A stretch of 64,000 nt of DNA from Oscillospiraceae bacterium (GTDB lineage: Bacteria; Bacillota; Clostridia; Oscillospirales; Ruminococcaceae). Below the pieces are notes generated by a model that searched no databases, was not told the origin of the DNA, and saw nothing but the letters and a program-made list of their open reading frames with translations. Position 1 is the first letter of the stretch, and each line of letters opens with the position of its first letter. Positions 12,892 through 56,477 of this stretch are shown here, one piece after another. The stretch is from contig JAITEB010000015.1 in assembly GCA_031282245.1 (NCBI GenBank), positions 1 to 64,000 on the forward strand, written 5' to 3'. The translations under genes and the position numbers were made by a program.

Positions 12892-13800
12892 TCAGAATTT
12901 GGGAATGACGGCTTTGCCGTAGGTGCTTTCGATAAATGAGCGGATTTCGTCGCTCTGGAGCGCGGCGACAAGCGCGGCAAGCTCCGGCCTGCCTTCGCTG
13001 CCTTCTTTGACGACGACGACATTAGCGAAAGTGTCGGCCGCAAGGGAATCCGCTGCTTCAACATACAGAGCGTCCTTGCTTGCGTCAAGCCCGGCTTCAA
13101 GGGCGTAGTTGCCGTTGATTGCCGCAAGCTCGACATCCTGAAGGCTTCTGGGGATCTGGGCGGCCTCAAGCTCGACTATTTTGAGATTTTTTGGATTTTC
13201 AGTGATGTCGTTTACAGTCGCTTCCAGACCCTTGCCGGGGTCAACTTTGATAAGGCCAGTCGATTCAAGCAGGAGCAGTGCGCGGGCCTCGTTGGTCGTG
13301 TCGTTGGGGACGGCTATCTGTGCGCCGTCGGCAAGTTCTTCAAGGCTTGCGGCCTTGCCGGGATAAATGCCGAAAGGCTCGTAGTGAATGTCGCCGATAT
13401 CTACAAGATGTGTGCTGTGCTCAGTATTAAAGCTTTCAAGATACGGCCTGTGCTGGAAGTAATTTGCGTCAAGCTCGCCCTCTTCAACAGCCGTATTGGG
13501 GAGGACATAATCCTGAAATTCCACAATCTCAAGGGTAATTCCCTGCTCGGCGAGTATGGGCTTGACGGCCTCAAGAATTTCCGCGTGCGGCACCGGTGTT
13601 GCGCCGACTTTGATGGTGACGGCAGGCGCGGCTTCTTCTTCGGAGCTTGCTTCTTCGGCGGGCGGGGCCTCTTCGGAACTTGTTTCTTCAACGGAGGGGG
13701 TTTCTGTGGAGCTTGTTTCCGGGGCGCTGCCGCAGGCGGCAAACAGCGCCAGGGACAGCGCAAGCGCCAGGATCAGAACTAACAGTTTCTTTGTTTTCAT
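12892..13800 (-). CDS. metQ: MetQ/NlpA-family substrate-binding lipoprotein
   Basis: 302 residues. The lipobox is LFAAC, followed by an unusually long Glu/Ser/Pro-rich tether (about residues 25-58). The NlpA fold then begins at IKVGATPVPHAEIL. Characteristic pieces: YFQHRPYLE, IPNDTTNEARALLLLE (as VPNDTTNE), and INGNYALEAGL. The family binds methionine, and some members bind other amino acids, outside the cell and hands it to MetNI. Neither the MetN ATPase nor the MetI permease is nearby, so it must partner with a transporter elsewhere. The start is ATG with GAGGTAG about 9 nt upstream. The promoter carries an operator shared with cysK. Confidence 0.93.
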   Translation of the reverse strand: MKTKKLLVLILALALSLALFAACGSAPETSSTETPSVEETSSEEAPPAEEASSEEEAAPAVTIKVGATPVPHAEILEAVKPILAEQGITLEIVEFQDYVLPNTAVEEGELDANYFQHRPYLESFNTEHSTHLVDIGDIHYEPFGIYPGKAASLEELADGAQIAVPNDTTNEARALLLLESTGLIKVDPGKGLEATVNDITENPKNLKIVELEAAQIPRSLQDVELAAINGNYALEAGLDASKDALYVEAADSLAADTFANVVVVKEGSEGRPELAALVAALQSDEIRSFIESTYGKAVIPKF

Positions 13801-13848: not shown

Positions 13849-13869
13849 AACATATATATAATATATGTT
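13849..13869 (-). promoter_or_regulatory. Candidate sulfur operator at metQ
   Basis: Perfect inverted repeat AACATAT-N7-ATATGTT, 21 bp, lying 4 bp downstream of the metQ -10 box and so over the start of transcription. The identical half-sites with the identical 7-bp spacing occur at cysK (55697-55717). Confidence 0.65.
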
Positions 13870-13873
13870 TACC

Positions 13874-13902
13874 ATGATAACATTTACGCCCTGTTATGTC
13901 AA
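13874..13902 (-). promoter_or_regulatory. Sigma-A promoter of metQ
   Basis: On the minus strand: TTGACA (13897-13902), 17-nt spacer, TATCAT (13874-13879). Confidence 0.75.
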
Positions 13903-13987
13903 GCTGCTGTCTTGTAAAATATGCACTGCGCGCGGCCATAAAAACTGGCGCTATTGACGAAAGCCGCTAATACAGGGGCAAACAAAA

Positions 13988-14020
13988 AAGGCACAGCCCG
14001 GAAATTTCGGGCTGTGCCTT
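13988..14020 (-). terminator. Terminator of a short minus-strand transcript
   Basis: 13-bp perfect stem: AAGGCACAGCCCG (13988-14000) pairs with CGGGCTGTGCCTT (14008-14020). Read on the minus strand it is followed by TTTTTTG, a textbook terminator. It lies upstream of metQ and cannot serve any larger annotated gene. Confidence 0.8.
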
Positions 14021-14036
14021 CTCACAGACTAAAATT

Positions 14037-14144
14037 TCACAAGGGGTTATTTTTGGCGCGCGAAAAAACGCGCATCATGCCCATGGCAGATACGCCGCAC
14101 ATCATCATAGCTTTATTTTCCGTCGCCGCAAAAATAGCGCTCAT
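14037..14144 (-). CDS. Candidate 35-residue methionine-rich small protein
   Basis: A short frame inside a well-bounded ~200-nt transcript. AAGGGG lies 7 nt before the ATG at 14144, and the stop is TGA at 14037-14039. The peptide begins MSAIFAATENK and has a central Met/Cys run (AMMMCGVSAMGMM) and a basic end. I do not recognise it. Promoter, ribosome site, frame and terminator together make a real gene plausible. The transcript could instead be a regulatory RNA with an incidental frame. Confidence 0.4.
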   Translation of the reverse strand: MSAIFAATENKAMMMCGVSAMGMMRVFSRAKNNPL

Positions 14145-14191
14145 GGGAATTCCCCTTCTGATTAATTTAATAGCATGTTAGTATGTTTTGC

Positions 14192-14220
14192 ATATTATCA
14201 CACCCGGCGCAATCTGTCAA
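14192..14220 (-). promoter_or_regulatory. Consensus promoter of the short minus-strand transcript
   Basis: On the minus strand: perfect TTGACA (14215-14220), 17-nt spacer, TAATAT (14192-14197). Confidence 0.75.
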
Positions 14221-54725: not shown

Positions 54726-55661
54726 TTAGTCTTCTTTAAATAGGGCAGTAGAAAGATAACGCTCGCCGGTATCCGGAAGCAGGACTATTATCGTTTTGCC
54801 GTTGTTTTCCGGGCGCTTTGCAAGCTCGGTTGCGGCATACAGCGCGGCTCCGGAAGAAATTCCCACCAGAAGCCCTTCCGTTTTGGCCAGATCCTTTGCG
54901 GCGGCAAAAGACTGCTCGTTTTCAACCTGCAAAATCTCGTCAACCACATCGCTATCATAAGTTTTGGGAACAAACCCTGCGCCTATGCCCTGAATTTTGT
55001 GCGGGCCGGGCTTTCCGCCGGAAAGAACAGGCGAATCCTTCGGTTCGACGGCCACTATTTTGACAGAAGGCTTATTCTCTTTAAGATAGCCTCCAACGCC
55101 GCTGATAGTGCCGCCGGTGCCCACGCCGCCCACAAAAATGTCAACCTCGCCCTCTGAATCTTCCCAGATTTCCGGGCCGGTGGTGGCTCTGTGTATAGCC
55201 GGATTCGCGGGGTTTTCAAACTGCTGGAGTATAATTGCGTTCGGAGTTTCGGCGGCAAGGGCGACGGCTTTTGCGATAGCCCCCTTCATTCCCTCAGCTC
55301 CGGGGGTGAGGACAATCTCGCTTCCCAAAGCTTTCAAGAGATTACGGCGCTCAATGCTCATGGTTTCCGGCATGGTAAGTATCAGCCGGTAACCTTTTGC
55401 GGCCGCCACAGAAGCAAGCGCTATGCCCGTGTTTCCGCTTGTCGGTTCAATAATAACCGAATCGCCGTTGAGCAGTCCCTTTTCCTCAGCGTCCTTTATC
55501 ATGGCATAGCCAATGCGGTCTTTGACGCTTCCGGCGGGGTTGAAGGCTTCTATTTTCGCTATAATTTTAGCGTTCAAGCCTTTTGATTTATTATAATTGC
55601 CTATTTCCAGAAGCGGTGTTTTGCCTATTAAATCCGTAAAACTTTTTGCTATTTTTGACAT
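54726..55661 (-). CDS. cysK: Cysteine synthase A (O-acetylserine sulfhydrylase)
   Basis: 311 residues, PLP enzyme. The cofactor Lys is K47 in [20 protein letters not shown] binds the amino-acid substrate, and [11 protein letters not shown] holds the phosphate. It makes cysteine from O-acetylserine and sulfide. No cysE is beside it. AAGGAGG lies before the ATG. The promoter is near consensus and carries the 21-bp repeat also found at metQ. Confidence 0.95.
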
Positions 55662-55696
55662 GATATAAGTCCTCCTTAAAAATTTATAACATATAA

Positions 55697-55717
55697 AACA
55701 TATTGTTATTATATGTT
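55697..55717 (-). promoter_or_regulatory. Candidate sulfur operator at cysK
   Basis: Inverted repeat AACATAT-N7-ATATGTT, 1 bp downstream of the cysK -10 box. A third AACATAT half-site at 55688-55694 extends it. Half-sites and spacing are the same as at metQ (13849-13869). Confidence 0.65.
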
Positions 55718-55718
55718 T

Positions 55719-55747
55719 ATTATATTCAGTTCAGACTATTTTGTCAA
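55719..55747 (-). promoter_or_regulatory. Consensus promoter of cysK
   Basis: On the minus strand: TTGACA (55742-55747), 17-nt spacer, TATAAT (55719-55724). Confidence 0.88.
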
Positions 55748-55801
55748 TAGCTTTTGCGCGAAAAAATAAAACAAGTTTTTCCCGCTGTTTACGCACAAAA
55801 A

Positions 55802-55826
55802 AACTGGCAGCTTTATACTGCCAGTT
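55802..55826 (-). terminator. Terminator of rex
   Basis: AACTGGCAG (55802-55810), loop, CTGCCAGTT (55818-55826). On the minus strand a run of T follows. Confidence 0.85.
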
Positions 55827-55838
55827 CTAAATATTAAA

Positions 55839-56477
55839 TTATTTTGCCGCTTCTTTAAGCTGATACGAAAGCGTCATAAGACTGTCGGAAAGATAGACGT
55901 TCTCAACAGCAACCCCCGGATGCGAAAGCCCAAAATCATAGTGCGAAAAGTTCCAAAAAGCTTTCACTCCGTAGCGTATAAGATCCTCCGCAAGCTTCCC
56001 CGCGCTCTCTTTTGGTATGCACAAAAACGCGGCTTCCGGTCTTTTCTCCCCGCAGAAAGCTTTAAGGCCGTCCATGCTCTTCACTTCCAGGTTCAGAAGC
56101 TGCCTGCCTATGACATTCTCATTTCGGTCGAAAACGCCAATAAGCCGGAAGCCGCTGTTCTCGAAGTCCATATGAAAAGCTATCGCCTTTCCAAGGTTTC
56201 CCGCCCCTATGAGTATCGCCCTGCTTTTGCGCGAAAGATCAAGTATTCGGCAAATCTCGCTGTAGAGATAGTCGACGTTGTAACCGTAACCCTGCTGGCC
56301 AAACTCTCCAAAGCAATTTAAATCCTGCCTGATCTGCGAGGCGGTCAGCCCCATTTGCTGGGAAAGCTCGCTTGAAGAAGTGCGGGAGATGCCGTTTTCT
56401 TTAAGATCCCTCAAGAACCTGTAATATCTTGGCAAACGCCGTATGACTGAATTTGAAATATTTTCTTTTTTGTTCAC
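55839..56477 (-). CDS. rex: Redox-sensing transcriptional repressor Rex
   Basis: 212 residues. Winged helix with VIRRLPRYYRFLRDL and SSELSQQMGLTASQIRQDLNCFG (in part), FGQQGYGYNV, then the Rossmann NADH-sensing site AILIGAGNLGKAI and the ENVYLSD end region. Rex represses fermentation and other redox genes and lets go when NADH rises. It is preceded 26 nt upstream by a small membrane-protein gene on the same strand. Confidence 0.94.
   Translation of the reverse strand: MNKKENISNSVIRRLPRYYRFLRDLKENGISRTSSSELSQQMGLTASQIRQDLNCFGEFGQQGYGYNVDYLYSEICRILDLSRKSRAILIGAGNLGKAIAFHMDFENSGFRLIGVFDRNENVIGRQLLNLEVKSMDGLKAFCGEKRPEAAFLCIPKESAGKLAEDLIRYGVKAFWNFSHYDFGLSHPGVAVENVYLSDSLMTLSYQLKEAAK

Follow-up and report, generated by a model that had tools for sequence, protein, structure and literature searches.

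A 21-bp palindrome shared by the metQ and cysK promoters of an Oscillospiraceae bacterium as a probable CymR/IscR-type operator

The window considered here, a 64-kb stretch of DNA from a draft Oscillospiraceae assembly (1.91 Mb, 49 contigs, 95.5% complete), carries one 21-bp palindrome, AACATAT-N7-ATATGTT, upstream of both metQ and cysK. Its presence at two sulfur amino-acid genes raises the question of whether the two copies form one operator and, if so, what protein would read it. An earlier note on this DNA had described perfect half-sites at these two genes, each 1-4 bp downstream of a -10 box; both copies are indeed exact, the window has no other exact site, and the spacing is confirmed by a consensus promoter scan (Table 1). 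Both palindromes sit behind TTGACA-17-TATnAT promoters. Because transcription is expected to start 6-8 bp after the -10, the start would fall inside both operators.

Table 1 Features of the metQ and cysK loci in the window
Feature	Position	Strand	Remarks
metQ, methionine-binding lipoprotein of the MetNIQ transporter	12892..13800	-	Pfam Lipoprotein_9
metQ operator, AACATATATTATATATATGTT (minus strand)	13849..13869	-	4 bp after the -10, over the expected start site
metQ promoter P2, TTGACA-17-TATCAT, TG before the -10	13874..13902	-	Consensus promoter scan
Region resembling a leader-peptide attenuator, upstream of metQ	13984..14220	-	Fold z -4.87
Met-rich ORF of 35 codons, MSAIFAATENKAMMMCGVSAMGMMRVFSRAKNNPL	14037..14144	-	Upstream of metQ
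cysK, cysteine synthase A	54726..55661	-	TIGR01139, 458 bits
Weaker second dyad, TAACAATATGTTTTATATGTT	55688..55708	-	Shifted 9 bp; PWM 9.5 bits; half-site ATATGTT repeated
cysK operator, AACATATAATAACAATATGTT (minus strand)	55697..55717	-	1 bp after the -10
cysK promoter, TTGACA-17-TATAAT	55719..55747	-	12/12; consensus promoter scan
Hairpin AACTGGCAG..CTGCCAGTT and T run, between rex and cysK	55795..55826	-	Read directly in the sequence
rex, redox regulator gene	55839..56477		Directly upstream of cysK

The two sites and their loci

Pattern matching over the whole assembly (1,909,521 bp) found the exact palindrome twice and its reversed-pattern control not at all; the genome scan that the earlier note had called for thus returned metQ and cysK rather than scattered matches. 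Allowing one mismatch adds a single site, C29:4436, which was ruled out as a further target as it lies within an 81-codon ORF, and with two mismatches the count is at control level (23 matches versus 24 in the control). From the rate of exact matches in 397 genomes of the family, about 0.05 would be expected per genome, which gives a probability of about 0.001 for two or more, the shared promoter position not yet counted. Most exact matches in the other family genomes are intragenic and were therefore set aside as shared operators, promoter placement being common only to metY of G219 and, more weakly, to a site in G235. The relatives and the family genomes searched included none of the same genus.

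At cysK, the hairpin and T run that separate the gene from rex, which were seen by direct reading and were not reported by the consensus scan, make it probable that cysK is transcribed from a promoter of its own. The weaker dyad overlapping the cysK operator may hold a second dimer. MetQ, a lipoprotein of the NlpA/MetQ type, also matches TIGR00363 and PRK11063, in both cases below the cut-offs. The partner transporter genes metNI lie apart from metQ, on another contig (C36:36846-38050; L185), and their promoter has no copy of the operator; metNI was rejected as a third target, as its promoter contains only an AT-rich two-mismatch match that overlaps the -10 and scores 5.6 with the matrix described below.

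Upstream of metQ lies a further region of note, on the minus strand, with a second promoter (TTGACA-17-TAATAT), a Met-rich ORF and a strong hairpin of the terminator type, an arrangement that resembles a methionine leader-peptide attenuator. The ORF has no Pfam match, and a half-operator, AACATAC, follows the -10 of this second promoter.

The same promoter-operator unit in other genomes

The motif was also learnt independently of this genome. Upstream regions of cysK were taken from relatives, of which the named ones suggest a Clostridia-like lineage for the present genome. The 22 regions that had a good promoter, none of them from this genome, entered an EM search for a palindromic motif downstream of the -10; an initial run on regions that still contained the -10 was dropped, since that box had contaminated the result. 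The search yielded aaCaTATaaaatttATAtGtt at width 21 and CcTATtaaattaATAgG at width 17, with a log-likelihood of 102.9 compared with 32.0 +/- 4.3 (maximum 49.5) for 30 dinucleotide-shuffled sets. The resulting consensus, aaCaTAT-N7-ATAtGtt, is the same as that of the metQ and cysK sites, and the C at -8 is strongly conserved (80%). Across the 64-kb window, which the matrix scan covered, the width-21 matrix ranks the metQ operator first (13.9 bits) and the cysK operator second (13.2 bits). Among held-out cysK promoters, that of a Gracilibacteraceae genome scores 15.7, and those of Bacteroidota are mostly below about 9.

Searches for promoter and operator as one unit gave a concordant picture. 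The strict composite (a promoter followed by AACnTA-N9-TAnGTT) matches 12 of 394 genomes of the order and the control none; in addition to those of the present genome, its sites lie at cysK (G581, G428, G480 and G369), at metY (G607, G740 and G429) and at transporter genes (G427, G445 and G037), and one match is probably due to chance. A looser composite, run over 61 genomes with one control match overall, adds cysK, metY, one cystathionine synthase/lyase gene, adenylylsulfate reductase and a single SufC-like gene (G035) that was recognized by eye only, together with several sites that we judge to be chance. With the promoter required, this looser form yields only metQ and cysK in the present genome. 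Elsewhere in the family and order, then, the unit precedes cysK, metY, metB and aprA, and the operator recurs at sulfur genes in the same promoter position, so that the earlier proposal of a shared operator over both starts is now strongly supported.

The earlier note had also suggested aligning the metQ and cysK promoters of relatives. The operator class is kept at cysK of the relatives, but metQ offers no comparable set; in most of them it follows metI within an operon, and an operator at metQ is thus known to date from this genome alone. Some operators combine different half-sites, as in AACATATTAATCATATAGGTT (G037) and AACATATCTGATAGGTAGGTT (G429). This mixing of AACATA and AACCTA halves within single operators indicates one operator class, of which the form found here would be one end of the range.

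In relatives, metY, metQ or transporter genes can be separated from the operator or promoter by short leader ORFs, which mostly contain Cys and often have the motif FRNGRM(C) (L168, 1560-1646; L163, from 1552); others stand upstream of the match in L113, L114, L120, L223, L228, L229 and L289. NCBIfam and Pfam searches with the leader peptides gave no match. The leaders of the relatives are probably cysteine attenuators stacked on the operator.

These results bear on two explanations that dispense with a DNA-binding protein. Palindromes might arise by chance in AT-rich promoter regions, since the sites are AT-only except for one C or G per half-site and the exact matches of other family genomes fall mostly in coding sequence; we consider this extremely improbable, as two exact sites occupy the same place in two sulfur promoters where a twentieth of a site was expected, and as the motif from other genomes has the same consensus. 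Alternatively, the palindromes, which are located at or just past the expected start, could fold as hairpins at the 5' end of the RNA instead of acting as DNA operators. This is very unlikely too: related operators tolerate mixed halves, such as AACATA with TAGGTT, that would break the pairing, as would suit a protein-bound site better than a stem, and the window contains no Rfam family.

The regulator

The geometry of the operator is that of Rrf2 regulators such as CymR and IscR, namely a 5-7-5 dyad with a 7-bp centre and a C at +/-8. Glu43 of DNA-bound IscR contacts the C at -8, and no base-specific contacts are made to the 7-bp centre of the IscR, NsrR and RsrR operators (PMC9338935). Among 20 genomes examined, nearly all of which had been chosen for such an operator, 15 have an Rrf2 protein of the Glu43 type, and these proteins nearly always carry three IscR-like cysteines. 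The Glu43-type gene is linked to the operator in several genomes, being beside or within about 2 kb of an operator gene in G429 (where it is divergent from metY), G011, G369, G427, G581 and G607. One such regulator, that of G219, was scored against NCBIfam and falls between IscR and CymR, below both cut-offs (115.6 bits against the CymR equivalog NF047409, cut-off 195); among solved structures, a BadM/Rrf2-family regulator is its best match and B. subtilis CymR comes next. The earlier note had doubted that the sequence is a CymR site, a reservation that loses its force given the Rrf2 geometry of the motif and the CymR/IscR-type genes adjoining regulated genes elsewhere.

In the present genome, a PF02082 search of the draft assembly recovered no Glu43-type Rrf2 gene. 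It returned two Rrf2 proteins above the cut-off, encoded next to rpoD (C6:13582-13989) and at C26:7732, with Leu and Val at position 43 and scores of 37.5 and 23.1 bits against the CymR model NF047409 (cut-off 195). Neither gene has the operator, and a cymR gene beside iscS was looked for and is absent there. Members of the rpoD-linked protein's distinct subfamily (VTLRF.LKILRKL, C-terminal half rich in Cys) are encoded after rpoD in many family genomes (relatives L194-L210), with 49-59% identity. The promoter of the second Rrf2 gene has a different palindrome, GTTAAAC-N19-GTTTAAC, around the -10 (L017, about 1937-1969; G000, C26), possibly for autoregulation.

We propose that the 21-bp palindrome is probably a CymR/IscR-type operator over the cysK and metQ start sites, presumably bound by a dimeric Rrf2-family winged-helix repressor. 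Its membership in the operator class is supported by the sequence comparisons. Each subunit would read AAC(A/C)TA and leave the central 7 bp unread, and a dimer bound just 3' of the -10 would lie over the start site and keep RNA polymerase out, the simplest model from the placement. From this we infer repression at metQ and cysK: both genes would be shut off by an ample supply of sulfur amino acids and switched on when the supply runs low. The signal would be cysteine in excess or, provided that the regulator's cysteines bind a cluster, Fe-S cluster status. An Rrf2 protein presumably reads the site in this genome as well, and the reader would either be encoded outside the assembled sequence or have been replaced.

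Each of these two possibilities forms a rival account of its own, although both are sub-cases of the regulator question within the proposed explanation. It is possible, if doubtful, that the operator is real and that the rpoD-linked Rrf2 protein, the second one or a non-Rrf2 protein has replaced a lost CymR/IscR-type protein. The 95.5%-complete genome has no Glu43-type protein, nor have G026, G036 and G009, which all keep a cysK operator of this kind, and the rpoD-linked paralogue is conserved in the family. However, both resident proteins lack the residue with which IscR reads the conserved C, neither gene carries the operator, the rpoD-linked paralogue was not found in the operator-bearing genomes G740, G037, G235 and G581, and G036 is without any Rrf2 protein. 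That the gene is simply missing from the draft, the regulon being an ordinary CymR/IscR-type one, is rather unlikely; the frequency of Glu43-type proteins in the comparable genomes (15 of 20) speaks for it, but the a priori chance of missing one given gene at this completeness is only about 5%, and G036, which is 90% complete, shows the same absence. A wider proposal, which we regard as unlikely, is that operators of this class persist here after the loss of their CymR/IscR-type regulator and have come under an unrelated or strongly altered protein, while the sulfur amino-acid regulon of the wider group is governed by IscR-like Rrf2 proteins with cluster-binding cysteines. If this is true, such regulators would tie cysteine synthesis to Fe-S status.

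The proposed CymR/IscR-type operator can be written at the level of letters, as AAC(A/C)TA-N9-TA(T/G)GTT just after the -10, and in this form it predicts sulfur amino-acid regulons in a large, little-studied group of Firmicutes. It also prompts us to ask if Fe-S clusters are sensed by the group's cysteine regulators, and what reads the operator where these regulators are absent.

Comparison with CymR and IscR

CymR, a member of the Rrf2 family, is the master repressor of cysteine metabolism in Bacillus and Staphylococcus; in its regulon proper, repression depends on cysteine and acts through the CysK complex. The system described here resembles it in having cysK as a target, in its association with sulfur amino-acid genes and in the Rrf2 regulators found in relatives; moreover, the cysK promoter of Paenibacillus agri (L041), which was outside the training set, scores 12.8 bits with our motif. 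It differs in that the G219 regulator lies below the CymR equivalog cut-off and in that metQ is an added target here. Furthermore, B. subtilis CymR binds no Fe-S cluster (PMC9338935), whereas the operator-linked regulators keep three IscR-like cysteines.

There is also a likeness to IscR at the level of the site. The type 2 motif of E. coli IscR is CCxYA-N7-TRxGG (PMC4055776), and the present operator, C(A/C)TAT-N7-ATA(T/G)G, has equal half-site spacing and the C at +/-8; the operator-linked regulators of relatives also have the Glu43 reader and the three-cysteine set. Unlike those of IscR, however, the targets are mainly sulfur amino-acid genes, and only the SufC-like target links the two. 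A further related system is that of C. acetobutylicum, for which the CymR and IscR motifs are predicted to be alike (PMC3828012). Its CAC2236/CAC2235 pair (CymR/cysK) is matched by relatives in which an Rrf2 gene adjoins cysK; in contrast, its predicted CymR regulon belongs to another lineage, and its site is given as a logo only.
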